55,634 nucleotides of DNA from Microscillaceae bacterium (GTDB taxonomy: Bacteria; Bacteroidota; Bacteroidia; Cytophagales; Microscillaceae). The notes beneath the pieces were generated by a model. It had not been told where the DNA came from. It made no database searches and was given only the letters and a program-made list of their open reading frames with translations. The stretch covers positions 1 through 55,634 of the forward strand of contig JAABSX010000026.1 in the NCBI GenBank assembly GCA_011390205.1, in the 5' to 3' direction. The position numbers and the translations under genes are program-made. This document shows, piece after piece, positions 1 to 55,634 of the stretch (its first letter is position 1; every line of letters begins with the position of its first letter).

Positions 1-126
1 TTCTTCTGCTAATTCTTCCATACATCTAAAATAAGTTTTGCTGTGGATATACGCAAATAAATGTTCAAAAATTACGCTAGGCTCGGTTTCTAGTACAATC
101 CCAACAATAAACCAAAGTTTTGAATC
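1..126 (-). other. Open frame running off the left edge, no start codon visible early
   Basis: On the minus strand a 42-codon frame is open from two consecutive stop codons (127-132) to the window edge. Its composition looks protein-like, but the only ATG lies seven codons from the edge (19-21). It could be the beginning of a gene to the left, a decayed gene whose upstream part is interrupted by the two stops, or chance. I do not recognise the family. The 89 bp between it and the SUMF1 gene hold nothing else that I can see. Confidence 0.2.
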
Positions 127-40435: not shown

Positions 40436-41467
40436 TTAGAGCACCTCGTCATCCTCCTCTTTTTTGCCAAAGAGTTGGGTTTCTTCGGTTTTTTGGATAA
40501 TATCTCTTACAATCTTATCTAATTCTTTGGCAGAGTGCTCTAGGTATCCTAAAAACTCATCTATCTCTTGTGGGGGGTTTTTTTTATCAAATAATAGATT
40601 GATGAGCCCCATCATACGGGCAAGAGGTGCCCTTACTATATGTGCCTGAATCCAAGCTATTTCTTGAAATTTTTCGTTTTGGGCCTCAATGGCTTGTATG
40701 TAGTAGGTTCGTTCGCTCACATCAGTAGCCAATACAAGTCTGGCGTGTCTGCCATTTAGCTCTATGGGGTTACTCTGAATATCTACACAAATAATCCCTC
40801 CGTCTTTCTTTTTGTGCCTTACGTTGCTGAGTAAAAAATTGGGCTTTCGGTATGATTCTCTAGTAAGTCTGATAAAGTTATCTGCATCCTCTTCTAGGTA
40901 AATTTCTGTTACTTTCATAGCCAAAAACTCTTCTAAGGAGTAGCCATAATGTATGATGGTGGCTTGGTTTACATCCAAAAACTCATGTGTCTGTTCATCA
41001 AAGACCATCATAGGCGAGGGGCTTAAATGAAATAAATCTCTATATTTTTTTTCAGACTCTTTGATTTGAGATTCAGTCCTTTTTCTTTCTAGGCTATAAG
41101 CGATGCTTTTGCTAAGTTGGTAGGCGTTGAGTTCGTCTTTGAGTAAATAATCGGATACGCCGAGTCCTACGGTTTTCACACCAAACTCCTTGTCTGCGAA
41201 CCCAGTCAATACAATGATGGGTTTTCCTTCGGAGAGTCTTACAATTTCTTTGACGAGGCTTTCTCCACTTGCATCGGGCAGAGATAAGTCTAAGAGAATG
41301 ACATCAAAGTGCTGATTTGCAAGCGTTGTCTTGGCTTTTGAGAGGGTAGTTACTTGGTGAATTGTGATATTGTGTACTTCCTCTTGTAAGTAGTCTTCTA
41401 TTAAGATATAATCGCCTTGATTATCTTCAATCACTAATATGCTCAGGTCAGACAATGATATAGGCAT
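40436..41467 (-). CDS. Response regulator-PAS protein with an orphan DHp domain
   Basis: 343 residues. The receiver (1-125) has LVIEDNQGD, the phospho-acceptor Asp in VILLDLSLPDASG, the Thr in VLTGFAD and the Lys in YLLKDE. A PAS domain follows (about 140-255, LFHLSPSPMMVFDEQTHEFL). The last 75 residues are a helical DHp-like segment with an H-box AWIQAHIVRAPLARMMGL and second helix LEHSAKELDKIVRDI. There is no HATPase domain, so it is a REC-fronted phospho-acceptor or dimeric scaffold rather than a kinase. It lies 3 bp after the single-domain regulator, in the operon-like group headed by the giant kinase. Confidence 0.88.
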   Translation of the reverse strand: MPISLSDLSILVIEDNQGDYILIEDYLQEEVHNITIHQVTTLSKAKTTLANQHFDVILLDLSLPDASGESLVKEIVRLSEGKPIIVLTGFADKEFGVKTVGLGVSDYLLKDELNAYQLSKSIAYSLERKRTESQIKESEKKYRDLFHLSPSPMMVFDEQTHEFLDVNQATIIHYGYSLEEFLAMKVTEIYLEEDADNFIRLTRESYRKPNFLLSNVRHKKKDGGIICVDIQSNPIELNGRHARLVLATDVSERTYYIQAIEAQNEKFQEIAWIQAHIVRAPLARMMGLINLLFDKKNPPQEIDEFLGYLEHSAKELDKIVRDIIQKTEETQLFGKKEEDDEVL

Positions 41468-41470
41468 ACC

Positions 41471-41911
41471 TTAATAGTTAGATTTGGTGGGTAACTTTGC
41501 TACGGACAGCCAGAAGAGCTTGATAGCCTCAATGGTTTCTAAAAATTCTGTGAGTTCTACGGGTTTTGTGATGTAGCTATTGGCGTAGTTTTGATAGGCA
41601 CTTATGATGTCTTTATCTGAAGATGAGGTGGTAAATATCACCACAGGGATATGCTTTAAATGCTGGTTAGACCTTATTTTTTTTAGGAGCTCGTGCCCAT
41701 TCATTTTGGGCAGATTGATGTCTAATAAAATAAAATCGGGCGTAGTTACATTTTCGTAAGCACTTGTTTTTTCTAGAAACTGAAAAGCTTCCCATCCGTC
41801 TTTTGCTACACTTATTTGGTAATCTGTGTTACCTGTTTCTAGGGCATCTGTTGTCAATAAAATATCACCTTCATTGTCTTCTACCAACAAGATATGTGTG
41901 GGTTTTGTCAT
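41471..41911 (-). CDS. Single-domain response regulator (Rcp1-type)
   Basis: 146 residues, only a receiver: LLVEDNEGDILLTTDAL with the acidic pair, the phospho-acceptor Asp in FILLDINLPKMNGHELL (about residue 63), the Thr/Ser in VIFTTSSSDKDI and the Lys in SYITKPVEL. EDNEGD is typical of the cyanobacterial-phytochrome-like Rcp1 group, often paired with PAS/GAF-rich kinases. The neighbouring giant kinase (94 bp upstream) is the likely partner. It has no output domain of its own, so it may relay to the REC-PAS-DHp protein. Confidence 0.92.
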   Translation of the reverse strand: MTKPTHILLVEDNEGDILLTTDALETGNTDYQISVAKDGWEAFQFLEKTSAYENVTTPDFILLDINLPKMNGHELLKKIRSNQHLKHIPVVIFTTSSSDKDIISAYQNYANSYITKPVELTEFLETIEAIKLFWLSVAKLPTKSNY

Positions 41912-42005: not shown

Positions 42006-45000
42006 CTATTTACGAATAGTGAAATAAAAAGTCGTACCTTTTCCGATTTCTGATTCTATCCATATTTTTCCGTGGTATCGTTCCACTATTTTTTTACATA
42101 TTGCCAGCCCTATGCCTGTGCCAGAGTACTCTTCTCGGCTGTGCAGTCTTTGGAAGATTACAAACACTTTGTCAAAGAATTGTTTTTCTATCCCGATGCC
42201 ATTGTCTTTGATTTCAAATTGCCAGTGATTCCTTAGTTCTTTGTGTCGAATCTCGATGTATGGCTGTATGAGTGGGTTTTGGTATTTGAGGGCATTGGTG
42301 ATGATGTTTTGAAATAACTGCTGCATGTGTGTTCTGCCTGCTTTGATGGCGGGGAGTTTTTCCCATTTTATTTGTGCATCTTTTTCTTGGATGAGGGTTA
42401 GATTCAGGGTGATAATCTCTTCTAAAAGGTTATCAAGCATGATATTTTCTTGCTTTGCTTCATTTCTCCCTACCCTTGAATATTCCAGCAAATCTAAGAG
42501 AATTTTACGCATTCGTACAGCTCCATCTACGGCAAAGTGAATGTATTTTTGGGCTTTTTCGTCTAATTGGTCTTTGTATTTTTTATCTAGCTGAGTAAGA
42601 AAGCTAGTAACCATTCTGAGAGGCTCTTGGAGGTCATGAGAGGCTATGTAAGCAAACTGCTCTAGCTCGGCATTGGAGTTTGCCAGTTCTTGAGCTCTTT
42701 GATTCATCTCAGTATTGAGTTCGTTGAGGTGTTGCTCGTATTTCTTCTGTCTGGTGATGTCTCTTTCTATGGCTACCCAGTGGGTAAAGAAGCCGTTCTC
42801 ATCGGCCACGGGCACTACAGAGAAATTTACCCAAAACTCTTCTCCATTTTTTTTGTAATTGATTAAGTCTATATTGAGGCTTTCCCAGTTTTCTAGGGCT
42901 TTTCGGAGCTTGTCAAGTGTTTCTCTGTCAGAGTTAGGCCCTTGGAGTATTCGGGGCGTTTTGCCTATGACATCTTCGGGCGCGTATCCTGTCATCTTGG
43001 TAAAGGCATCATTGACATAGACGATTTTGGGTCCGGGCAGGTCAAAAGGCTCGGCCTCCGTGATGAGTACTGAATCGGTGGTGTGTGTTACTACAGATTC
43101 TAGCAGTTTGAGTCTTTCTTCTTCTTCTTTTTGCTTGGTGATGTCTTGCAAAGCCCCTATCATTCGGTAGGGTTTGGCTGTTTTTGGGTTTCGGATGATG
43201 ATGGCTTTTTCTCTGATGTAAGCATATTCACCATTGGCTTTTTTAAATCTATACTCACCTGTCCATTTATTGGTATGTTTATCTTGTCGGACTTGCATGA
43301 TTTCGCCCCATATCCTGTTAAAGTCATCAGGGTGAATACACGTTTTCCAGAAGTCTTCTTTAACGCCTTCCTCACATATTTCATAGCCAAAAAGTCTTTG
43401 GTACCCTTTGCCCCAGAATACATTTTCTTTGTTCATATCCCAGTCCCAGATGGCATCATTGGTAGCTTCCATGACGATATCGTAGCGTTCTTTGGCAAGC
43501 CTGACTTCTTCTGCTGCTTTTTTTCCTTCTGTGATATTGATAGAAATGCCTGCGATGGCATAAGGCTCATTGTTTTGGTTTTCTAGGAGGAATTTCATTT
43601 CTAAGAATACCTCCTCCCCTACTTGGTGTTCAAAACTTTCGGGGAGTTTATTCTGAATGATTCTTTTATCGACTCTCCTGCAGTTGTCCGCAAAATCTTC
43701 CTCAAATATATCATAATCTGTCATCCCTAATTTTAGGTCTTGATGACTAATGGCTTTTTTGTAGCCCTCATTAAAGAATAAGTACCTTCCTTTTAGGTCT
43801 TTCATAAACACGACCATAGGTGCAAAATCCATGATGGTCTGAAGCTGATCCTTTGATTTTTGGAGTTCTTCTTCGGCTATTTTTCTTTTGGTAATATCTC
43901 TAAAATAGATTGAAAGTCCTTCTTTGGAGGGGTACACACTCACTCCAAGCCAACTATTTAGTGATGGGTAAAACTCTTCAAAATCTGTGGAGATATTTTC
44001 TTTTGCTGCCTTGTGGTACTCTGTGTAAAATTTAAGTGAGATGGCTTCTTTTAATACCTCCCATAAGTTTTTATGAATGATATTCTCTTTGGGCACACCC
44101 ATAATCATCTCTGCACGATGATTCCAGTAGGTTACCCTCCACTCTTTATCCAAGGTAAAGAATCCGTCATTGATACTTTCTAAGACATTGGTTACTCTCT
44201 GGCTGTAGGCTTCCAGCTGTGCTTTTGATTTTTGGATGTCTGTGGCATCTCTGGCTACGGCATAGATATTTTGGCTGTCTTCATCCCAGCGAGCCGACCA
44301 GATGATGGGTATAATTTGCCCATTTTTGTGCCTGTATCTATTCTCAAAATCAGTAATGCGCTGCCCTTCCATTACTTGCTTGGCTGTATTGATGCTTTTG
44401 GCTTGGTCTTCTTCTATGACAAACTCGACAAAGAATCTTCCTTGCATTTCTTCGGGAGTGTAGCCCCATATTTTGGAGGAGGCTGCACTGACCTGAATAA
44501 AGCGTCCTTGGGCATCGATGGTGCAAATAATGTCTGCTGATTGGTTTAAGATTTTTTGTAAGAATGCCTCATTTTCCCTGAGTTTTTCTGCGGCTTCTAC
44601 CTGCTTGCTGATGTCTGTATGTACACCTATGATTCGGAGTGGCTTTTGGTCTTTACTCCATTGGGTTACTTTTCCTCTTGTGAGAATCCACTTGTAAGAG
44701 CCATCTTTGCACCTTAGTCTGTGTTCTTTTTGATATACATCTATTTTGCCTTCAAAGTGCTTATTAAGTTCGTCATAGCAGGATTGTAAATCATCTTGGT
44801 GTACGAGTGCTTCCCAGCTTTCAAGCTTTGATGAGATTTCGTCAGTCTCGTATCCAAGCATTGTTTTCCATCTATCAGAGAAGAATACATCATCACTTTC
44901 TATATTCCAGTCCCAGATACCATCTCCTGAGCCTTCTAGGCCAAATTTCCATCTTTGCTCAATCTGATTGAGGCGTATGCTTTGTCTTTTTTGGTAGTCT

Positions 45001-48000
45001 ATGTCTTGAAAAACCCCAAACAGACGGACACAGACACCATTTACAAACTCTGCCCGCCCTTTAGCTCTTACCCATTTTTCTCTTCCTTTTTGTGTAATGA
45101 TTTGTAGGTCTGTATCCCAGGGGTTTCCGTGCTCGATGGCCTCTTGTACCAATAGCTGTATTTTTTCACGGTTTTCTCCTTCTTTGTAAAAATAAATACC
45201 CTCTGCAAGTGTGGGTTCGTAATCTGAACTTACCTCATGGATTTCTTTGGTGATGGGCGACCAGAACAACTTCTGCTTGATAACATCAAACTCCCAGCCT
45301 CCGATGTGTGCTATGAGGTTGGTTTCTTGAAGTAGTTCGAGGGTTTTTTTGAGTTCTATTTCATAATTTTTTCTTTCTGTTACGTCTTGAAAAGTACCAA
45401 ATACTTTGACGGTCTTGCGGTGTACGTGTAGCGGTTTGGCAGTAATCTGTAGCCATTTGGTGCTGAGCCCATTTGTTTTGGTGGTGAGGTTAAAGGGTGT
45501 CCCAAACTGTGATGCGTGTTCAAAGGCATCTGTGAGCAATTTAGCGTCTTCTTCTACAAAGAAAGATGTTACATTTTTGATGCTCAGTTCAGTATCTTCT
45601 TTGATTTCTAATAGCTTGTAAACCTCTCCAGTAAGGATAAGTTCTTCGGTGAATGGGTCATACTCCCAGCCACCTACTTTGGCATTTTCTTGGGTATCTA
45701 CGAGCAGTTTTTTATACCTCTTGCTTTCTGTAATATCCCTTACAGAAGTAACCTTGTATCTTGAGCCATCTTCTTGGATGAGTAGCTCTGCACCTACATA
45801 TATTTCTATGAGTGTACCGTCTTTGCGCTGAACTTGCCACTCCATGGGCATTTCTGGAATACCTATGATGAAATCATCGTGCATTTTTTTGGCAAAAACC
45901 CTTGACTCAGGAGGCAGCACCATCTCAAACCCCCTTCCTATAAGCTCTCTGACTTCATACCCGTAGATATGCGCATACTCACGGTTTACACTCACAAAAT
46001 GGCCCTGCTCATCTGTAACACAAATGCCTATGTTGGTGGCATTAAATACTGAGGCGAGGAGTTTTTCTACTTTGCCAAGGCTCAGCATGGCTTGCTTCAG
46101 GTCTGAGATTTCTAGCAGAGAGATAGAGATAACGGATATTTTCTCTCTAGCATCCAAGACAGGGGTGTAGTTGTAGTTAAACCATCTTGACTGCCCTTCT
46201 ATATCTTTAATCACCCTTTCGCTTTTGATGGTTTCCCCTTTGAGTGCTTTTTGAATATCTTGGGTGAAGTACTCGAGGTAGTCATTTTCTAATATATCTA
46301 TGATGGAGTTGCCTACTTTGAGTTCTTTTCCAAACAGCCCCACGAAGCTGTCATAAGCTTTTTGATTAAAGACATTGATTTTATAAGTAGCATCTATGAG
46401 TATAAAGGCTTGCAGTGTATTGCTGAGGAGTGCCTCCTGATTTTCGTCTTTTTTTCTGAGCAGGTCGTCCTTGTCTTGTAGCTCTTCGTGTGTTGATTTG
46501 AGTTCTGAATAAGCTATTTGAATCTCTTCGTTGGTAGATTGTAGTTCTTCATTGCTGGTTTCTAGCTCTTCATTAGAAGATTGCAGCTCTTCATTGGTAG
46601 ATTGCATTTCTTCGTTAAGAGATTGCAGTTCTTCATTGGTGGTTTCTAGCTCTTCTATGTATGTCTGAAGGTGTTCTTTGGTGGCAGCAAGTTCTTGCTC
46701 CAGCTCTATCATTCTACTTTCTTGGGGGATGTCATTGGGTTGGTTCAGAAATTCGCCAAAGAGGTCAGTAGATTCAAACCTTTCAAAGATAACCAAAAAG
46801 AACTGGTTGGCTCCTTTAGAATACATGACAGGCTTCACGATGAATCGCATGTAGTGTAACTGCCCAAAAAACTCTATTTTTTTGAGTTTGCTTCGTCTGG
46901 TTTGTTGGTTTTTGAGGGCTTGGCTAATGATAGAGCGCAACTCTATCTGTAGCTCAGGGATGATAAGTTTGATGATGTTGGCATTCATACTTCCTTCGGG
47001 GAAGTTAAAAAAAATCCTTACATCACCGCTGATTTCTATCACATCATAGCTGTCATTGATGATGACATAGGGATGCTCAAATGTCTGAAAGAATGTTTCT
47101 TTGAGCATCTCTTTAAGGGAGTATTCTTTGCTGCCTTGGTTCTCATTTTTTTTGGCTATGTGGGTGAGTATTTTTTGGGGTTTGAATGCAGAAAAGCGTA
47201 CATTGTGTAGGTTTCCCCCTCTTTTTCTTTGGAACAGCTTGCTTTTTGCGTCTATGGTGGCAAAAAGGTCTGAAAACTGCCCTATAGTTTCTGATTTTCC
47301 TAGAAAAAGTATGCCATTGAGGTTAAGTGCATAATGGAAGATGGGCATAATCTGCTGCTGCAGACTTGCTCCAAAATAGATGAGCAAATTGCGGCAGGTA
47401 ATCAGGTCTAGTTTTAAGAAGGGTGGGTTACTGGTGAGGTCATGCCTAGAAAAAAGCACCATAGATCGTATATTTTTAATCAGCTCATAGCCCTCCCCTC
47501 TTTTTAAAAAATACGCTCCCAGCATTTCATCTGATAGCCCATTGATGGCTGACTCAGGGTACACACCTCTTCTTGCCTTTGCGATGGCTTTTTCGTCTAT
47601 ATCTGTGGCGAATATCTGGATATTGTACTCTTGTATTTTATTTTTGAGTAATCTTGATAAGATAATGGCAATAGAGTAGGGTTCTTCTCCTGTGGCACAG
47701 CCAGGCACCCATATTCGGATTACATCTCCTTGATTTTTTGTACCAATGATTTTTTTAATCTGTGCTTCTAGTGCGTCAAAAGCGTCTTTATCTCTAAAAA
47801 AACTTGTAACTCCTATAAGATACATCTCAAAGAGATCATCTAGCTCTGTGGGTTTATCTTCTATATAATCTAGGTAATCTTCCACGCTTTCTATGGAAAG
47901 CATCAGCATTCTTTTATCGAGCCTTCGGTTGATGGTAGCGGGCTTATAGTTAGAGAAGTCAGTGCCTGTTCTTTTTGACAAAAGCTGAAATATTCTTTCT

Positions 48001-48698
48001 AAGCTTTCTTGCCTGTTGCTTGGGATTTCATCTTGTGAATTGAGACGTTCGGGATGCAAGATATATTCTCTGATTTTTTCGCCCATTTTATCTACGGCAA
48101 GAATCATATCTATGCTTCCTGTTTCTATGGCAGAGACTGGCATGCCATCATATTTGGCAGTAGAAGGCTCTTGTGCGATGGTGATGCCTCCTGATTGCCT
48201 GATGGCAGTGATGCCTTGTGCACCGTCTGAGCCTGTGCCTGAGAGTATTATGCCTATGGTGGAGTAATCGTCTTCTTCGGCAAGAGACTGGAAGAGTACA
48301 TCTACTGAGGGTTTGGGCCCTACCATGCTAGAGGGTTTTTGTAGGTTGATGTGTTTATTATGAATGGATATTTCTTTGTCGGGTGGGGTAATATAGACGA
48401 TGTTTGCAGCCAATAGTTCATAATGTTGGGCTTCTTTTACTTGTAGCTGTGTGTTGCGGCTAAGTAGCTGCACGAGCATGCTTTTATGATGTGGGCTAAG
48501 ATGCTGTGCAATGATGATGGCTACATTCTGAATATCTGTGGGGAAGTTTACTAAAAAATCTTTGAGTGCTTCTAAGCCTCCAGCAGATGCGCCTATGCCT
48601 ATCACTGTAAGCTTTGCTGTAGATTCATGCTTGATTATTTCTAAACCTTCCTTGTCTGTCTCGGGCTGGTCAGCACTTGGCTTGCTATGTTCTATCAT
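42006..48698 (-). CDS. Giant CheB-CheR-multi-PAS histidine kinase
   Basis: 2230 residues in one frame. CheB-type methylesterase (about 30-215): GASAGGLEAL (Ser), IAQHLSPHH (His) and SGTGSDGAQG (Asp). CheR methyltransferase (about 225-500): TSFFRD, VPGCATGEEPYS and the ITCRNLLIYF tail. A PAS-like segment (about 525-635) and a long coiled coil (about 665-760) of repeated NEELQS heptads follow. Then come ten PAS domains (about 770-1990), mostly PAC-closed (xxDITxxK). The last has a LOV-like core (GKTPRILQG) without the flavin-binding Cys. The C-terminal kinase has ASHDLQEPLRMV (His about 2020), NALKY, DNGIGIE and GTGIGLAICKKI. The CheB-CheR fusion without other chemotaxis genes suggests a signalling rather than flagellar role. 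The gene leads the two downstream REC genes. Confidence 0.95.
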   Translation of the reverse strand: MIEHSKPSADQPETDKEGLEIIKHESTAKLTVIGIGASAGGLEALKDFLVNFPTDIQNVAIIIAQHLSPHHKSMLVQLLSRNTQLQVKEAQHYELLAANIVYITPPDKEISIHNKHINLQKPSSMVGPKPSVDVLFQSLAEEDDYSTIGIILSGTGSDGAQGITAIRQSGGITIAQEPSTAKYDGMPVSAIETGSIDMILAVDKMGEKIREYILHPERLNSQDEIPSNRQESLERIFQLLSKRTGTDFSNYKPATINRRLDKRMLMLSIESVEDYLDYIEDKPTELDDLFEMYLIGVTSFFRDKDAFDALEAQIKKIIGTKNQGDVIRIWVPGCATGEEPYSIAIILSRLLKNKIQEYNIQIFATDIDEKAIAKARRGVYPESAINGLSDEMLGAYFLKRGEGYELIKNIRSMVLFSRHDLTSNPPFLKLDLITCRNLLIYFGASLQQQIMPIFHYALNLNGILFLGKSETIGQFSDLFATIDAKSKLFQRKRGGNLHNVRFSAFKPQKILTHIAKKNENQGSKEYSLKEMLKETFFQTFEHPYVIINDSYDVIEISGDVRIFFNFPEGSMNANIIKLIIPELQIELRSIISQALKNQQTRRSKLKKIEFFGQLHYMRFIVKPVMYSKGANQFFLVIFERFESTDLFGEFLNQPNDIPQESRMIELEQELAATKEHLQTYIEELETTNEELQSLNEEMQSTNEELQSSNEELETSNEELQSTNEEIQIAYSELKSTHEELQDKDDLLRKKDENQEALLSNTLQAFILIDATYKINVFNQKAYDSFVGLFGKELKVGNSIIDILENDYLEYFTQDIQKALKGETIKSERVIKDIEGQSRWFNYNYTPVLDAREKISVISISLLEISDLKQAMLSLGKVEKLLASVFNATNIGICVTDEQGHFVSVNREYAHIYGYEVRELIGRGFEMVLPPESRVFAKKMHDDFIIGIPEMPMEWQVQRKDGTLIEIYVGAELLIQEDGSRYKVTSVRDITESKRYKKLLVDTQENAKVGGWEYDPFTEELILTGEVYKLLEIKEDTELSIKNVTSFFVEEDAKLLTDAFEHASQFGTPFNLTTKTNGLSTKWLQITAKPLHVHRKTVKVFGTFQDVTERKNYEIELKKTLELLQETNLIAHIGGWEFDVIKQKLFWSPITKEIHEVSSDYEPTLAEGIYFYKEGENREKIQLLVQEAIEHGNPWDTDLQIITQKGREKWVRAKGRAEFVNGVCVRLFGVFQDIDYQKRQSIRLNQIEQRWKFGLEGSGDGIWDWNIESDDVFFSDRWKTMLGYETDEISSKLESWEALVHQDDLQSCYDELNKHFEGKIDVYQKEHRLRCKDGSYKWILTRGKVTQWSKDQKPLRIIGVHTDISKQVEAAEKLRENEAFLQKILNQSADIICTIDAQGRFIQVSAASSKIWGYTPEEMQGRFFVEFVIEEDQAKSINTAKQVMEGQRITDFENRYRHKNGQIIPIIWSARWDEDSQNIYAVARDATDIQKSKAQLEAYSQRVTNVLESINDGFFTLDKEWRVTYWNHRAEMIMGVPKENIIHKNLWEVLKEAISLKFYTEYHKAAKENISTDFEEFYPSLNSWLGVSVYPSKEGLSIYFRDITKRKIAEEELQKSKDQLQTIMDFAPMVVFMKDLKGRYLFFNEGYKKAISHQDLKLGMTDYDIFEEDFADNCRRVDKRIIQNKLPESFEHQVGEEVFLEMKFLLENQNNEPYAIAGISINITEGKKAAEEVRLAKERYDIVMEATNDAIWDWDMNKENVFWGKGYQRLFGYEICEEGVKEDFWKTCIHPDDFNRIWGEIMQVRQDKHTNKWTGEYRFKKANGEYAYIREKAIIIRNPKTAKPYRMIGALQDITKQKEEEERLKLLESVVTHTTDSVLITEAEPFDLPGPKIVYVNDAFTKMTGYAPEDVIGKTPRILQGPNSDRETLDKLRKALENWESLNIDLINYKKNGEEFWVNFSVVPVADENGFFTHWVAIERDITRQKKYEQHLNELNTEMNQRAQELANSNAELEQFAYIASHDLQEPLRMVTSFLTQLDKKYKDQLDEKAQKYIHFAVDGAVRMRKILLDLLEYSRVGRNEAKQENIMLDNLLEEIITLNLTLIQEKDAQIKWEKLPAIKAGRTHMQQLFQNIITNALKYQNPLIQPYIEIRHKELRNHWQFEIKDNGIGIEKQFFDKVFVIFQRLHSREEYSGTGIGLAICKKIVERYHGKIWIESEIGKGTTFYFTIRK

Positions 48699-48871: not shown

Positions 48872-48913
48872 AAAAAAATAGCCCTTAGAAATATCCAAAG
48901 GGCTGTTTTTTTT
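48872..48913. terminator. Bidirectional terminator downstream of the cyclase gene
   Basis: AGCCCTT (48880-48886) pairs with AAGGGCT (48898-48904). A-run (48872-48878) before and T-run (48906-48913) after. It closes the surface-protein/cyclase transcript on the minus strand. Confidence 0.85.
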
Positions 48914-48926
48914 GATGTTTTGAGTT

Positions 48927-51026
48927 TTAGGTTCCTTGCTGGTCAAGCTGCCCAAACTTTTCGTATTTTAGGCTGATAAAATCATCATTGGGGATGAATC
49001 CGTTTTCGTCTGCGGATAGCTCTGGTTTGATTCTTTCCACAAAGAACATTCCTAGCACAAGCCCGTTTTTCACTTCTACTTTTCCTCTCGGTACACACAC
49101 AAAGAAATCTTTCACAGACTCATAAGTTTGTTCGGAGATATTTACTCTGTTGATTTCTCCTCCACTTTCCATACGAGAAGCGATATTTACGGGGTCTCCC
49201 CAGATATCATAAGCAAACTTACTTGTTCCGATGACTCCTGCCCTGATTTCACCTGTATTGATTCCTAGTCGGCACTGCCAATAGTCATCTCCTTGGGCTA
49301 GTTTTTCTTGCCGTCTTCTTATCATGAATCTTTGCATCTCTAGCCCTGCAAGCACCGAATCTATGGGGTTAGTGGCATTGGCTTCGGGGATACCTCCTGC
49401 ACACATATAGGCATCGCCGATGGTTTTGATTTTCTCGAGCTGGTGCTTGGCTATGATTTCATCAAAGGCAGTAAAGCAGTCATTGAGTTCTTCCATGAGT
49501 TTGTCGGGAGACATGGTGGCGGCGAGTTCTGTAAATCCTTTAAAATCTGTAAATAAGATAGAGACCGTTCCGTAGTTTCTCATTTTTGCCTTTCCGTAGG
49601 TTTTTAGCTCATCGGCTATTTTTAGTGGCAGGATATTGAGGAGCAGTTCATCAGATTTTTCCCTTTCTATCTGAATAAGTTTATTTTTATCCTCAATGGC
49701 ATCTCTTTGGGCAGTGATTTCTTCATTTTGTTGGTTAATCTCTTCATTAAGGAGCACCATTTTATCACGCTGCTTGCGTCTGGTGCGTGCTATAAAGTAA
49801 AAGACCACCATCGCAATGAGTAGGATGGCAATGATGCCAAACAAGATGTAAAACAAATACCAGTACTGCCTTAAGAAAGAGTTAAAAGACATGATTCCGA
49901 GCTTGTTTTGGAGTTTGTCTAGTTGGCTAAAGTTCACATCACGTAGCCTTTGGTATTCTTTATCATACTGCTCTAGTTGTTTTTCTAACCCTGCGATGAC
50001 AATTTTGAGCTCTTCTTTTTGTGCGGGTGTGAGGTCATTCCCTTCTAGGTAGGCTGTGAGTTGGTTGAGTCTTAGTTTTACTTTTCCTTGTTTTTCTACG
50101 AGTAATCTCTCGCTCTCTAGAATATCCTGCTGGGCTCTTTCCATCAACTCCTCATAGGTTTTGGGCTCATCAAGTTCTTTGAGTGATACCTCCTTTCTTT
50201 CAAGCTCAGATATATTTTCAGTTCTGTCTGTATTGGTAGTTACTGAATCAATAGCACCTGTGCGAGTCAAGTTTAATCCAGCCAAAAGAGAATCTATGTT
50301 AATCTTGGCAGGCTTAATAAGCCTTGTATCCTCTTGTGTTCTTTTATCGCCACCATACACAAAAGCGCCATCAGCAAGTGGCTCGCCTATTTCTTTGTTA
50401 ATGGTAATTCTTTTAGTGCCTGTACCATCTGTTGTGCCTGAGGCATTGGCAGCATAGTTTTGGGTATAAGAGAAATTATTGGCGGGGTTTCTGACTTCTA
50501 GTTGGTAATCTTGCCCCTCTCTTAGCTGCCCATAAAATTCATTGGTGCTGGGGTCATATTGTAGTCGTACTTGCTCATTGAGATTTTGGTTATCCATTTT
50601 AATAATGAGCTTTTCAGGATTTTTGCCCAGCTCTTTGGCAGATATTCTAACCTCTGATTTTTTAGGTTTGAGATAGACATTTTTACTAAACTCATACTCC
50701 TTTACTTTTCTGAGGTTCACCTCCATCATTTGGTTATCGAAGCCTTCTTGACTTACTTCTACTTGGTAGCTCTCCCCGATGGGCAAGCGCACTTCTGTGA
50801 TTCCTTGTGCATCTAGGTTTTGTACTACTTCTCCTTTGCTATTTTTGACTGTAATCTTCCCTTTGATGGGTGTCTGCAAATCTGAGTCTAACATATTGAC
50901 AAAGACCACAGCTTTGTTGATTCTGAAGTCAAAAGTTTTGCTTTCCACTTCTTTTACCTTGTCTTCTTGGGCTTGAGCAGACAATCCGCACAGACAGCTT
51001 AGAAGTAAAATGATTATTTTTTTCAT
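48927..51026 (-). CDS. Membrane-anchored class III adenylate/guanylate cyclase
   Basis: 699 residues. Signal peptide (ending SAQAQE), then a periplasmic part (about 22-385) with three carboxypeptidase-regulatory/PEGA-like beta repeats (GKITVKNSKGEVVQNLDAQG, then SYQVEVSQEGFD) and a helical stretch. One membrane helix follows (about 388-412, WYLFYILFGIIAILLIAMVV), then a coiled coil and the cyclase domain (about 485-680). The metal Asp residues are in SILFTDFKGFTEL and KTIGDAYMCAGG, and the transition-state Asn/Arg are in DPVNIASRMES. Lys in KIKTIGDAYM and Asp in YDIWGD suggest ATP as substrate, making cAMP. Its gene starts 3 bp after the stop of the surface-protein gene, so it is co-transcribed with it. 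Confidence 0.93.
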   Translation of the reverse strand: MKKIIILLLSCLCGLSAQAQEDKVKEVESKTFDFRINKAVVFVNMLDSDLQTPIKGKITVKNSKGEVVQNLDAQGITEVRLPIGESYQVEVSQEGFDNQMMEVNLRKVKEYEFSKNVYLKPKKSEVRISAKELGKNPEKLIIKMDNQNLNEQVRLQYDPSTNEFYGQLREGQDYQLEVRNPANNFSYTQNYAANASGTTDGTGTKRITINKEIGEPLADGAFVYGGDKRTQEDTRLIKPAKINIDSLLAGLNLTRTGAIDSVTTNTDRTENISELERKEVSLKELDEPKTYEELMERAQQDILESERLLVEKQGKVKLRLNQLTAYLEGNDLTPAQKEELKIVIAGLEKQLEQYDKEYQRLRDVNFSQLDKLQNKLGIMSFNSFLRQYWYLFYILFGIIAILLIAMVVFYFIARTRRKQRDKMVLLNEEINQQNEEITAQRDAIEDKNKLIQIEREKSDELLLNILPLKIADELKTYGKAKMRNYGTVSILFTDFKGFTELAATMSPDKLMEELNDCFTAFDEIIAKHQLEKIKTIGDAYMCAGGIPEANATNPIDSVLAGLEMQRFMIRRRQEKLAQGDDYWQCRLGINTGEIRAGVIGTSKFAYDIWGDPVNIASRMESGGEINRVNISEQTYESVKDFFVCVPRGKVEVKNGLVLGMFFVERIKPELSADENGFIPNDDFISLKYEKFGQLDQQGT

Positions 51027-51029
51027 GTT

Positions 51030-54000
51030 TTATTCTTTTATCAGTTTTAGCACCACCTGTTGTGATTGATTTTTTATGGTTAGAAAATATTTGCCATTAG
51101 AAAAGGCTTCTAAATTTATAAGATATTCTGTAATCGGCAAATTTTTAGCCAAAATATCTTCAAAAATTGTTTTCCCATTCACATCATGCACACGCAAGTT
51201 CATATTTCCGATATAGTCATTTTCTATTCTCAGTCTAAATAAACCATCTGTGCTAGGATTAGGGAATACGCTTGTCTGGTATCTTAGTGCATCAGGGTCT
51301 ATAGAAGTTGGCACACCAAATACTGCACCGATTGTCTCACTGTATTCAGAAAGGACAGTGCTTTGAAAAGCCCTCACACGGTAATAATACGTGATGCCTT
51401 CCACCACATCATTGTCTGTAAAGAAAGTGATGTTTGTACCTACGGTACCTATTTCTGTGAATGTACCTTCCAATCCTTCGCGTCTTTCAATAGAGAACCC
51501 TGCCTCAAACTCATCATTATCTGCCCAGAAGATATCCATACCTACCCCCGAAGTAGCATATACTTCTAGATTGCTTGGTGCATTGAGTGAAGTAATAAAG
51601 GTCTGAACTTCTATCACACCTGAGGCAGCCGAGGCGCCTGTAGCATTGAGCGCACGTACTCTGTAATAATAAATTATGAATACATCTAACCCTGTAGCTA
51701 AGTAAGAGGTAGCATCGGAGATTGGCTCATTAGATAGAAGCAAATTACTAAACTGAGGGTCAAGGGCGATGTCTATGCTATATTCCGTGATTCCATCTAG
51801 CCCCTCCCAATTGGCAGTAAAGCCTGTAGCCACTACTTCACTTGCAGCAAGTGCAAGTGGTGCTTGTGGTAAGGTCAAAAACTCTATTGTGTTAGAACTG
51901 ACAGAAGAAATACCCAATCCGTTGATGACCCTCACACGGTATTGATAGAGTGTATTGGGTGTAAGCCCTGTTACTAGCACTGTATTGGTCAGTACTTGTC
52001 TATCTTCATACCCTGCAACGAAGGTGTCAAAATTATCTTCAGACACGTCTAGCCTGTATTCCGTGGCATTTGATATTGGTGTCCAGTTGGCAGTAAACTC
52101 AGTGGCTACTTCGGGTGTGAAAGTAGCTGCATTGGCTACAGGTGCACTTGGTATCAATATAACTCTCGGATTTTGGCTGCCATTTGTATTGTTATAAAGT
52201 GTAGCTGTGCATCGGTAAGGGACTACCTTCACAAAATAGTTTACTCCTTCTTGCAAGCCTGTAATAGTGATAGGGCTGGCAATCAACGGGCCATTATATA
52301 CCACTTGCTCACCTGAGCTTAGATAATTGAGGTCTGCTGGTGGTATATTATCCCCTAAGCCCCACTCTGTGAAGAAGCCTTGTGGATCATTACTTATCAT
52401 GACTAAGTATCCTGAAGCATCAGTCACGTCTGTCCAAGAAGTAATCTCTATGGAGGTAGCAGTATTCGCTCCAAAGAATACCTCATCTACTGGGCTGCTT
52501 GGCATGTCGCAGCCTTGCCCTTGCAATAAAAAGGTATAGGGCTCATTGGCACAATCACTCCCGAATATGACCAATGTTTCTGTTACTAGGGCATCTGCAC
52601 TCGGTGTAAATGTAACATCAAAGGTAAATGACTCACCAGGAAAAAGGAATGGAGGCTCTCCTGCAAACAATATATCAAAATCAGTGCTCGTAGGATTGAT
52701 AAAAAATAAATCAGAAATAGACAATAGACTCTCACCTGTGCCTGTGTTCTGAATCGTGAAAGTCTTGGTAACTGAAGCACCCACACTGACTGTCCCAAAA
52801 TCTGTATTATTGGTAGTGCTTACAGTAAATGAATTATTAGGAATCACTTGGGCATTGCCCAATACAGTCATTTTAGGGTAAGCATTCTGGAAAAAACACG
52901 TATTAGAAATGCTAAGATTGCCCTCTACCCAGTTGGAGTTAGGCCCTGTGAGTGAAAAGTTATTCAAATTACCATTGTTGTTAGAAGCTCTGTCTAGCAA
53001 GACATTCTCGGAAGTATTGTCTGAAGCAACTCTGCCTTGGTTAAAATCATAATACACCAACAAGCCAGCCTCTGAGCCCGTCAGCTCACAAAATAAACCT
53101 TCATTGATTTGATGACACGAACGGACTTCATTCCAAATTCTTAGCTCATCTAACTGCCCTTCCATAAAACCGTTTGCTAAGTCTGGTCTTGCACCTAAAA
53201 ATAAATTAGAACCTACAGGGGTACTCAATGTCCTCGATACATTGGCAACTTCCTGACCATCAGCATATACCTTTACATTCGCTCCATCATAAGTAACTGC
53301 AAGGTGGTGCCAGTTAGCATCTAGGGTATAACCTGTGTCAAAATCATTGATTCCATCAAAGAAAAAGAGATTCTTCTGTGTATTGTCAGCATATAAGCCA
53401 AAAGAAGTTCCACTGCCAATATCACCCCAACCTGCATAATGGCTGATTGTCCCATTGGTTTTGACATCTTTTACCCAAAATTCAAGGGTTCGTGCATTGC
53501 CAGCACTGACTATATCCAAAGAACTGGTGCTTTGCACATAATCATCTACTCCATCAAAATCAAGAGCAGTAGCAGGAGGCGGGCAAAGTACATCGCCATT
53601 GATTATCCAATTAAAGGCATCTAACAATGTTTGTCTTTCGGTTTCAGAGGCACAATAGGTCAATCCTGCTGCGCCCAAGGTAATGCCCGTGGGGATTTGC
53701 GTTTCGCCTGTCTCTAAGGTAGCCCAGCCGATAAGGGTAGCATCATAATTGGCTTGTGAGAGTCTGCTGCCATCTAACATTTCAGTCATTCCATCTTCTG
53801 TAATATTTACATCAGGGTCTTCTACAATGCTACTGATGTCCCAAGCACTTAGATTTTGATTAAAAGAGGGAGCAAAATTAAACATCTTGTTCATATTTTG
53901 CACACTACTTACATTCCATCCACTAATATCTCGATTGAAAACAGTCGCATCTCTAAACATACCAGACATATTTACTACATTACCCACATCCCAAGTGCTG

Positions 54001-55634
54001 ATGTCTTGGTTAAATATAGAACCGCCACCAAACATACTGCCCATGTCGGTAACATTACTCACATCCCATCCACCAATATTTTGATCAAAAGAGGTGGCAA
54101 AATTAAACATAGCGTTCATATTGGTAACTGAGGTAGTATTCCAGCTACTAATATCCTGATTAAAAGCAGTGGCGAATAAGAATACACCATTCATATTGGT
54201 AATACTTGCACTTGATGTATTCCAATTCAAAGGATTATTACTTTGCCCTACTGCGTCTCCATTGTTGAAAGCGGTAGCTCCAAAAAACATCACCGAAATA
54301 TCCGTAGCACTGCTCATATCCCAAGATGAAATATCTTGATTGAAATTCACACAATTGACAAACATTCCTGAGAATGAAGTTCCATTGCTCACAGTCCAGT
54401 TATCGAGTGGGCTATTGAAAGCCGTGGCATCTTCAAACATACCCGAGAAAGCCGCTACATTACCCACGTCCCAGTTATTGATATTCCCATTGAATGTAGT
54501 ACAACCTCTAAACATCAAGCCCATATCCATATTAGGTACAGCATTTAAAACTGGTGCGTCTGTTGCATTGTAAGTCAAATTGGCACAGCCATAAAATGCC
54601 CCACTCATACTCGTCCAAGCAATGTCTCCCCATTGCTCTATGGTTTGAATTTTTAAAATATCTTGCCCCTCAAAGCCATTGTTAAAGTAAATACGAGGAA
54701 AATCTCCTGTAATATCTATCTGATATGTATCTCCATTATTCAATCCTGTGATGGTAAAATCACCTATTTGTCCTGTAGCAAAGCCATCTCCTAAACCCGT
54801 ATTTGTAAGGTTTATCCAAGTAATATCATAGTTATAACCTTCTCCAATAGTTGGTATAGTAAGCTGACCATCTGTAGTTACCCAAGTAGTACGGAAGGAG
54901 GTAGTAGAGCCTAAACAGTTGGGTGCATCTCCTGTGATTGTCCAACCAAAAGAATTGATTAGATTTTGTCTATCTGCCGTAGCAGCGCAGTAAGTCAGTC
55001 CGTCGGCTCCTAAGGTAATTCCTGTTGGAATCTGAGTCTCACCCGCAGCAACATCTAGGGTAGCCCAGCCTGTGAGGGTAGCATCGTAGTTGACTTCTGA
55101 AAGACCACTGTTACTGAGCATATTATTCATTGCAACTACATTACTAATATCCCAAGTGCCTAGGTTCTGATCAAATGAAATAGCATCAAGAAACATCGCA
55201 TCCATCTGAGTAACATTAGATACATCCCAAGTACTAATGTCTTGATTAAAGGCAGTAGCTGTCCAAAACATAAAGAATGCTTCATTCAGACTAACTACAT
55301 TCCAGCCAGAAATATCTTGGTCAAAGGCAGTAGCATGGTCAAACATAGAAGACATTTGAGAAACGTTAGATACATTCCAGCTCCCAATGTTTTGATTAAA
55401 TGCTTCTGCAAAGTAAAACATCCTTTGCATATTTGTTACATTAGAGACATCCCAGCCACTAATATCTCCATTGAATATCGTGGCATTCGCAAACATAGAG
55501 CGCATATTGCTTACATTGCCCAAATCTGGTATATCTACACTTACGCCATAAGTAAGATTAGCACAACCTTCAAAAGCACTTTCCATATCTGTCCAAGCTA
55601 TATCTCCCCATTGCTCTATGGTCTGAATCTTAGC
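51030..55634 (-). CDS. Giant BspA-repeat/LamG/FN3 surface protein with T9SS signal (5' end outside the window)
   Basis: 1534 residues are visible; the frame is open through the right edge, so the N-terminus is missing. From the edge inward: a BspA/DUF285 module (about 20-190), a second module of the same kind with its leading IQTIEQWGDIAWT segment (about 240-645), and a LamG/concanavalin domain (about 688-865, ALDFDGVDDYV, LDANWHHLAVTYDG). Then come a choice-of-anchor/HYDIN-like domain (about 920-1040), four fibronectin type III domains (about 1045-1440) and a C-terminal T9SS sorting domain (SVFPNPSTDGLFRLRI, then VHDVNGK, last about 85 residues). It is therefore secreted by type IX secretion and attached to the surface. 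The repeats suggest adhesion or sugar binding. The cyclase gene follows after 3 bp. Confidence 0.93.
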   Translation of the reverse strand, partial: AKIQTIEQWGDIAWTDMESAFEGCANLTYGVSVDIPDLGNVSNMRSMFANATIFNGDISGWDVSNVTNMQRMFYFAEAFNQNIGSWNVSNVSQMSSMFDHATAFDQDISGWNVVSLNEAFFMFWTATAFNQDISTWDVSNVTQMDAMFLDAISFDQNLGTWDISNVVAMNNMLSNSGLSEVNYDATLTGWATLDVAAGETQIPTGITLGADGLTYCAATADRQNLINSFGWTITGDAPNCLGSTTSFRTTWVTTDGQLTIPTIGEGYNYDITWINLTNTGLGDGFATGQIGDFTITGLNNGDTYQIDITGDFPRIYFNNGFEGQDILKIQTIEQWGDIAWTSMSGAFYGCANLTYNATDAPVLNAVPNMDMGLMFRGCTTFNGNINNWDVGNVAAFSGMFEDATAFNSPLDNWTVSNGTSFSGMFVNCVNFNQDISSWDMSSATDISVMFFGATAFNNGDAVGQSNNPLNWNTSSASITNMNGVFLFATAFNQDISSWNTTSVTNMNAMFNFATSFDQNIGGWDVSNVTDMGSMFGGGSIFNQDISTWDVGNVVNMSGMFRDATVFNRDISGWNVSSVQNMNKMFNFAPSFNQNLSAWDISSIVEDPDVNITEDGMTEMLDGSRLSQANYDATLIGWATLETGETQIPTGITLGAAGLTYCASETERQTLLDAFNWIINGDVLCPPPATALDFDGVDDYVQSTSSLDIVSAGNARTLEFWVKDVKTNGTISHYAGWGDIGSGTSFGLYADNTQKNLFFFDGINDFDTGYTLDANWHHLAVTYDGANVKVYADGQEVANVSRTLSTPVGSNLFLGARPDLANGFMEGQLDELRIWNEVRSCHQINEGLFCELTGSEAGLLVYYDFNQGRVASDNTSENVLLDRASNNNGNLNNFSLTGPNSNWVEGNLSISNTCFFQNAYPKMTVLGNAQVIPNNSFTVSTTNNTDFGTVSVGASVTKTFTIQNTGTGESLLSISDLFFINPTSTDFDILFAGEPPFLFPGESFTFDVTFTPSADALVTETLVIFGSDCANEPYTFLLQGQGCDMPSSPVDEVFFGANTATSIEITSWTDVTDASGYLVMISNDPQGFFTEWGLGDNIPPADLNYLSSGEQVVYNGPLIASPITITGLQEGVNYFVKVVPYRCTATLYNNTNGSQNPRVILIPSAPVANAATFTPEVATEFTANWTPISNATEYRLDVSEDNFDTFVAGYEDRQVLTNTVLVTGLTPNTLYQYRVRVINGLGISSVSSNTIEFLTLPQAPLALAASEVVATGFTANWEGLDGITEYSIDIALDPQFSNLLLSNEPISDATSYLATGLDVFIIYYYRVRALNATGASAASGVIEVQTFITSLNAPSNLEVYATSGVGMDIFWADNDEFEAGFSIERREGLEGTFTEIGTVGTNITFFTDNDVVEGITYYYRVRAFQSTVLSEYSETIGAVFGVPTSIDPDALRYQTSVFPNPSTDGLFRLRIENDYIGNMNLRVHDVNGKTIFEDILAKNLPITEYLINLEAFSNGKYFLTIKNQSQQVVLKLIKE
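53850..55520 (-). repeat. 75-bp coding repeats (DUF285/BspA) in two modules
   Basis: Within the surface-protein gene, a 25-residue unit of the form NVTxMxxMFxxAxxFNQDIS recurs. About five units lie in the right module (near 55100-55520) and about nine in the left module (near 53850-54540). Each module ends with the same cap (YDATLxGWATL, GETQIPTGITLG, LTYCA). The modules are similar at the DNA level as well, suggesting duplication. One unit in the left module carries an insertion (NNGDAVGQSNNPLNW). Confidence 0.85.

Follow-up and report, generated by a model that had tools for sequence, protein, structure and literature searches.

A class III cyclase with a PorE-type periplasmic module encoded behind a T9SS surface protein: a candidate envelope sensor in Microscillaceae

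At one end of the window analysed here, a whole contig of 55,634 bp (G000:C43) from the draft genome of a Microscillaceae bacterium, the gene for a giant T9SS surface protein is directly followed by the gene for a membrane-bound class III cyclase (Table 1). As judged by profile search and alignment, the periplasmic part of this cyclase is a module that was otherwise seen together with an OmpA domain in the same open reading frame (ORF), and this is the new observation of the present study. The two genes are tentatively interpreted, with somewhat less than even confidence, as an operon that couples a surface protein with an envelope sensor of its own, and this sensor would report outer-membrane assembly or export as cAMP.

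Table 1. Coordinates of the gene pair and its parts in the window.
Feature	Position	Strand	Basis
Giant surface protein (at least 1534 aa) carrying a T9SS sorting domain; open at 5' end, start beyond contig	51030–55634	−	ORF, Pfam, NCBIfam
Five DUF285/PARCEL repeat matches (55284–55592, 55059–55316, 54261–54614, 53964–54227, 53823–54083)	span 53823–55592	−	Profile search
LamG_3 (concanavalin A-like), residues 694–843 of the open frame	53106–53555	−	Pfam; coordinates from residue numbers
Choice-of-anchor D/ASH-like domain, residues 921–1024	52563–52874	−	Pfam and NCBIfam; coordinates computed
fn3, residues 1171–1248	51891–52124	−	Pfam; coordinates computed
T9SS type A C-terminal sorting domain, TIGR04183	51033–51269	−	NCBIfam
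Intergenic gap, 3 bp	51027–51029	−	ORF coordinates
Class III cyclase, periplasmic part and one membrane helix, 699 aa	48927–51026	−	ORF, Pfam, hydropathy
Cyclase signal peptide, about residues 1–20	50967–51026	−	By eye, no predictor; alignment
Double β-sandwich module, residues 38–207, carboxypeptidase-regulatory/transthyretin-like fold	50406–50915	−	Profile, model, fold match, alignment
Long periplasmic helical stalk, perhaps coiled coil, residues 291–388	49863–50156	−	Low-confidence model
Transmembrane helix, about residues 390–412	49791–49859	−	Hydropathy; structure model
Cyclase catalytic domain; D494, D538, K534, D607, N614, R618	49038–49583	−	Pfam, alignment
Terminator-like hairpin with T run, 25 bp past the cyclase stop	48882–48901	−	Pattern match, not proof

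The source genome comprises 4.51 Mb in 124 contigs and is 96.9% complete. Because the contig end falls inside the giant gene, the ORF is open at its 5' end, and the N-terminal signal peptide of the protein would lie outside the window. The contig ends within the repeats of this gene, which may be the reason why the assembly stopped there. The stop codon of the giant gene ends at 51030 and the ATG of the cyclase starts at 51026, which bears out the spacing of 3 bases given by a sequence-only reading of the window. Given this spacing and the conserved adjacency described below, the two genes are probably co-transcribed. Pattern scans fit a single transcript, but weakly and near the chance level: six terminator-like sites were detected in all against 2.5 expected, and five promoter-like sites of the E. 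coli type against 6.1 expected. On the minus strand between 48663 and 51400, neither a site of the E. coli type nor an exact match to the Bacteroidota-type promoter pattern TTTG-17..23-TANNTTTG was found. Elsewhere on the minus strand of the window, positions 42006–48698 encode a 2230-aa fusion of CheB, CheR, multiple PAS domains and a histidine kinase; behind it lie a lone response regulator (41471–41911) and a 343-aa receiver-PAS-HisKA protein (40436–41467), in which no HATPase domain was found.

In the giant protein, Pfam assigns DUF285 (PF03382, E 1.8e-124), LamG_3, fn3 and a T9SS sorting tail, and NCBIfam the PARCEL repeat TIGR02167, a choice-of-anchor D domain and a type A tail (TIGR04183, 34.5 bits with a cut-off of 23). 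Of the composition proposed from the sequence alone, LamG, fn3 and the sorting signal were thus recovered, whereas the repeat, then called BspA, is better named DUF285/PARCEL, with matches to PF03382 and TIGR02167 above the cut-off. The repeat family is the same as that of the known DUF285/PARCEL proteins (PMC2996958); the present member differs in being encoded beside a cyclase. No further DUF285 match was obtained in its own genome, where it is the sole DUF285 protein found. This genome contains 39 places matching the sorting domain, 38 of them above the cut-off, and the T9SS translocon SprA (2531.5 bits); SprA and cNMP-binding proteins occur in both genomes that carry the pair. The giant protein is probably exported by the T9SS and held outside the cell.

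In the cyclase, PF00211 is the sole Pfam domain at E 0.001 (E 2.6e-47; 161.2 bits, curated cut-off 21.9), and hydropathy reveals a single strongly hydrophobic stretch at about residues 390–412, which agrees with the earlier description of a cyclase with its own periplasmic domain and membrane helix. The active-site set is complete and aligns with adenylate cyclase 9: Asp494 and Asp538 presumably serve metal binding, Lys534 and Asp607 adenine binding, and Asn614 and Arg618 the transition state. Since the residues for ATP use are present, cAMP is the predicted product, and a cAMP output is also plausible in view of 11 cNMP-binding places in the same genome (9 above cut-off; 12, of which 10 are above cut-off, in the second genome described below). 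The solved bacterial class III adenylate cyclases 7yzi and 5o5k of the PDB, which we take to be membrane cyclases, have the catalytic domain in common with the window cyclase. In contrast to these, the latter has a single membrane helix, a long periplasmic stalk and a module of the OmpA-protein type, and is encoded beside an exported surface protein. Only nine cyclase places were found in its genome. Two further observations concern the cyclases of this genome: two of the genes are cut by contig ends (G000:C37:3-368 and G000:C68:31117-31506), and one frame of 410 aa (G000:C47:103813-104829) combines a cNMP-binding match with the cyclase domain.

An AlphaFold2 model of the cyclase, built from two sequences and with a mean pLDDT of 61.6, places two β-sandwiches in the periplasmic part (residues ~38–119 and ~123–207; ten-residue pLDDT means between 52 and 89, for the most part above 70). 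Among known structures, the first sandwich resembles the transthyretin-like domain found in carboxypeptidase D (5aq0_B; Z 11.8, rmsd 1.5, 78 aligned residues), on a par with other chains such as 9h68_C (Z 12.2, rmsd 2.7, 90 aligned residues) and one CnaB domain (Z 11.2), and 6fwv_A covers both sandwiches (Z 11.3, rmsd 4.2, 161 aligned). A sequence search of the PDB with the sensor gave no match at E 0.001; the weak matches (E 0.022 and 0.47) are designed or chimeric chains. From the rise per residue of an α-helix, the length of the stalk is estimated at about 15 nm if it is continuous, which would be enough to span much of the periplasm.

A module profile made from the two cyclases, those of the window and of the second genus, matched 11 other ORFs in the fetched loci (E 4e-23 to 1.5e-11). 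The alignment displays an Asp close to the beginning of the first sandwich, a Leu ahead of a conserved Tyr or His, the motif L-x-P between the sandwiches in most rows, and, in the second sandwich, N...E and, near the end, R....Y..E[VI]. In all 28 other loci examined (L059–L086), a set that excludes module matches of the order survey without an assigned locus, an OmpA peptidoglycan-binding domain is located in the same ORF as the module; they encode short OmpA proteins as well as others resembling PorE/CHU_0125, and from stop to stop the frames measure 332–364 aa, 676–849 aa and, in one case, 417 aa. With OmpA in 28 of 28 loci examined, the assumption that the module is a carboxypeptidase-regulatory domain of the general sort known from TonB receptors was rejected. 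The profile also matches the PorE/CHU_0125-like protein of locus L040 (E 5.6e-23). In this protein and in that of L046, which matched only the search with the first 399 cyclase residues and not the two-sequence profile, Pfam finds PD40 propeller repeats, a carboxypeptidase-regulatory match and OmpA, and the proteins of L040 and L045 score below the cut-offs with the NCBIfam models of CHU_0125 and PorE. Neither the cyclase module alone nor the isolated modules of two OmpA proteins matched these two models; as the models miss the isolated module, the relationship is supported by the two-sequence profile together with the alignment and the common layout. No OmpA domain, TPR or β-propeller was found in the cyclase, which by these comparisons appears akin to PorE through its module but is not itself a PorE.

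Some of the retrieved loci show features of their own. At L041:7171-9024 and L042:7049-9593, each short module-OmpA protein is preceded at a small distance by an unnamed protein of 270 aa; these two proteins are related to each other (34.5% identity) and have no NCBIfam match, and in L042 a 243-aa protein intervenes. A 551-aa cyclase of a relative from the same bacterial family (L121:3727-5382) starts with what looks by eye like a different carboxypeptidase-regulatory domain, for which Pfam gives no match, followed by a coil, a membrane helix and the cyclase domain.

The adjacency of both genes is not confined to one strain. Within the Microscillaceae, a family of the Cytophagales, the pair is also present in a second genus, represented by MAG SM2_1_3 (G009, contig JAAUUB010000067.1), where the gap is 5 bp. 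A search with cyclase residues 1–399 through 57 genomes, the own genome and its relatives, returned this MAG as the one strong match besides the own genome (E 1.7e-57) and eight others as weak ones. Between the two genera, the membrane and catalytic part of the cyclase is 70–73% identical and the sensor 36–38%, and the two catalytic domains are sisters in a tree of 71 (FastTree support 0.997). The upstream frame of 3190 aa contains eight DUF285 stretches, LamG, FG-GAP, fn3 and a sorting tail, and is collinear with the giant protein of the window, whose residues 1052–1534 match its C-terminus with 37% identity (E 1.6e-77). The G009 genome gave eight DUF285 matches, which equals the number of stretches in its giant protein. 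A frameshift interrupts the cyclase gene of G009; this is likely an assembly error, because the contig has, according to its name, only 3.5x coverage and SprA of the same MAG is broken as well. The giant gene of this MAG (L038:699-13031) seems to start around 699, where a signal peptide was recognized by eye, and includes FG-GAP/TIG parts; its frames do not join, and the N-terminal architecture is unlike the visible part of the window protein. The search for the same adjacency in other Bacteroidota, suggested by the sequence-only reading, was thus successful, and the possibility that the pairing is unique to this strain, which would have spoken against that reading, is rejected.

Spacings of 3 and 5 bp in two genera point to more than chance, though the own genome holds 9 cyclase and 39 sorting-domain places. 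A neighbourhood that arose by accident and was merely inherited by two related lineages would fit the finding of the pair in two genomes only, and at locus L128 a cyclase with a TPR-like N-terminus (by eye) follows a sorting-domain protein at 141 bp without any sign of a link. Such an origin is nevertheless hardly to be believed, as the short gaps were kept despite strong divergence of the proteins and, apart from the pair, the G009 stretch has no ORF that matches one of the window at 1e-5 (on the downstream side, the only one comparable).

The pair looks rare, because full-length matches were obtained in few genomes. With the two-sequence profile, 43 of 390 genomes of the order gave some match and 2 of 390 a full-length one, and in the phylum survey the own genome was the only one of 395 with any match; both surveys are samples in which at most four candidates were scored per genome. 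Two short peptide patterns, which reach close relatives only, returned the G009 locus alone from the contigs of GTDB r220 genomes, and no relative was found among viral contigs.

Two more general associations were considered and rejected. A general link between DUF285 proteins and cyclases found no support, since among the loci examined only the DUF285 genes of the window and of G009 precede this cyclase. In 36 of 43 DUF285 loci, 44 DUF285-like ORFs were recognized (no ORF passed the motif rule in the other seven); the downstream ORF was in view for 40 and on the same strand for 30, and this cyclase was the next gene in 2 of these 30 cases. Apart from the first three, these loci were hand-picked (40) among the better-ranked matches and do not represent all of them. 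Likewise, a general link between sorting-domain proteins and cyclases found no support, with 3 of the 72 family cyclase ORFs examined lying behind a sorting-domain protein. The 72 ORFs stem from 69 loci, 9 plus 60 hand-picked among the matches listed. A same-strand upstream ORF is present for 39 of them, and the local sorting-domain HMM marks two, in the window and in L128; the third case, G009, is hidden behind its own frameshift and was missed by the HMM.

Within the same order, the position behind a DUF285 gene can be taken by another kind of partner. In L203:1-5843, L214:3312-7746 and L205:6957-12664, the DUF285 gene is followed by PorP/SprF, PorP/SprF and a PorP-OmpA fusion at distances of −4, 4 and 11 bp, respectively, a tight layout like that of the window pair. 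The slot behind the DUF285 protein, held in these three loci by PorP/SprF or the fusion, is held by the cyclase in the window and in G009. All three PorP-paired DUF285 proteins have type B tails, and a search of the L205 fusion for the double β-sandwich module was negative. The window pair is not an adhesin pair of the SprB/SprF type, as the tail is of type A and the next gene encodes the cyclase instead of PorP/SprF.

According to the accessible text of PMC9143113, PorE of P. gingivalis is an outer-membrane-associated periplasmic protein which binds PorP, which in turn binds the type B surface protein PG1035, and SprF correspondingly binds SprB. The same source places the PorP binding of PorE, as a supposition, in the TPR or propeller domain and states that type A proteins of P. 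gingivalis are anchored through LPS and not through PorP. PG1058 (PorE) is composed of TPR, propeller, CRD and OmpA parts, the CRD being without known function in the portion of PMC5053529 available. Like PorE-PorP-PG1035 and SprF-SprB, the window pair joins a T9SS surface protein to a putative envelope partner. A CRD-like fold is part of PorE, and the PorE-like proteins of our analysis carry the module of the window cyclase. In contrast to these systems, the window has a type A tail instead of type B and lacks PorP, and the OmpA peptidoglycan anchor of PorE is replaced in the cyclase by stalk, membrane helix and cyclase domain. In effect, a cAMP-making output stands where the PorE-like protein has its peptidoglycan anchor. 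From a cyclase with a PorE-type module in the PorP slot, we infer an envelope partner of the giant protein that would convert the state of the outer membrane into cAMP. The homology of the sensor to OmpA proteins of the PorE/CHU_0125 type suggests that outer-membrane assembly would be read.

A mechanism of the following kind is conceivable. The giant protein would be exported and kept on the outside, while the cyclase would form a dimer in the inner membrane, with stalk and module reaching toward the underside of the outer membrane. The module might contact the assembly which exports or anchors its partner, whether this is a barrel in the outer membrane, the T9SS or the giant protein itself on its way out. 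If occupancy or load changed at this site, the stalk would shift and cAMP synthesis would be switched on or off, and cAMP could act via the cNMP-binding proteins. The more specific proposal of a trans-envelope receptor, in which the T9SS surface protein and the cyclase with its PorE-type module report the state of adhesin assembly in the outer membrane as cAMP, the cyclase having acquired the periplasmic module of the adhesin's envelope anchor along with its position in the operon, is possible but appears more doubtful. Several points weigh against an envelope sensor: the cyclase lacks the TPR and propeller, one of which is supposed to bind PorP in PorE, and its module alone matches neither the PorE nor the CHU_0125 model; the tail is of type A, whereas those of the three PorP pairs are all type B, so that the parallel to PorE-PorP is inexact, given the LPS anchoring of type A proteins in P. 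gingivalis; the pair was detected in two genomes only, which are comparable only on the downstream flank; and the reach of the stalk is estimated from a model of low mean confidence.

The sequence-only reading had proposed a direct route, in which surface contact or a ligand bound by the secreted protein is read by the periplasmic domain of the cyclase and turned into cAMP. It is plausible that the two proteins are functionally linked and that cAMP is the output, and LamG, fn3 and DUF285 are usual in surface-binding proteins. The direct route, however, is weak on topological grounds, because after export the giant protein should lie beyond the outer membrane and the sensor of the cyclase in the periplasm. 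Across this barrier a go-between or a contact before export would be needed, and no gene for an outer-membrane go-between is located in the window between or directly behind the two genes. Direct surface sensing is accordingly rated as very unlikely.

Contact before export is the core of another explanation, in which the giant protein would be bound by the cyclase while still in the periplasm, and a backlog in export would be signalled through cAMP. Such a checkpoint would suit the topology without a go-between, and the available text of PMC9143113 mentions cross-linking which suggested a contact between PorE and PG1035, perhaps before secretion. However, no sign of binding was recognized in the sequence, and the T9SS regulators named in the accessible part of PMC8754138 are PorX, PorY and SigP, not a cyclase. 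The checkpoint is therefore considered improbable, albeit less so than direct sensing.

A serious rival, not far behind the envelope sensor, is co-expression without contact: both genes would share a promoter and be needed under the same conditions, and the module would sense the state of peptidoglycan, envelope stress or a small ligand. This would agree with the occurrence of the module elsewhere in proteins with a peptidoglycan-binding domain, as well as with the effect of chu_0125 deletion, which harms outer-membrane integrity according to the accessible part of PMC5891637. Moreover, genomes of the family are rich in cyclases, several of which have other N-terminal parts and other upstream genes. 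On the other hand, the tight pairing was retained in two genera with nothing else of the G009 stretch matching the window, the partner is the only DUF285 protein detected in the own genome, and in G009 the eight matches equal in number the eight stretches of its one protein. Co-expression alone is thus regarded as unlikely on balance, and the dedicated envelope sensor remains the preferred interpretation.

In Pseudomonas aeruginosa, surface sensing leads from the pilus to cAMP via PilJ/Chp and CyaB. If the mechanism outlined above is right, the state of a surface structure would be translated into cAMP in the Microscillaceae pair as well; to our knowledge, the two systems have no parts in common except a class III cyclase. 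A description of a pair of cyclase and T9SS surface protein was not found in the literature, as covered by titles and the beginnings of abstracts, with subscription papers mostly outside the scope. The cyclase described here, with its PorE-type module and its place next to a T9SS surface protein, represents a concrete candidate, open to experiment, for coupling the export or anchoring of surface proteins to cAMP, and could help to explain what the little-understood CRD module does in PorE-like proteins. The pair may constitute a hitherto unrecorded way of sensing the state of the cell surface.
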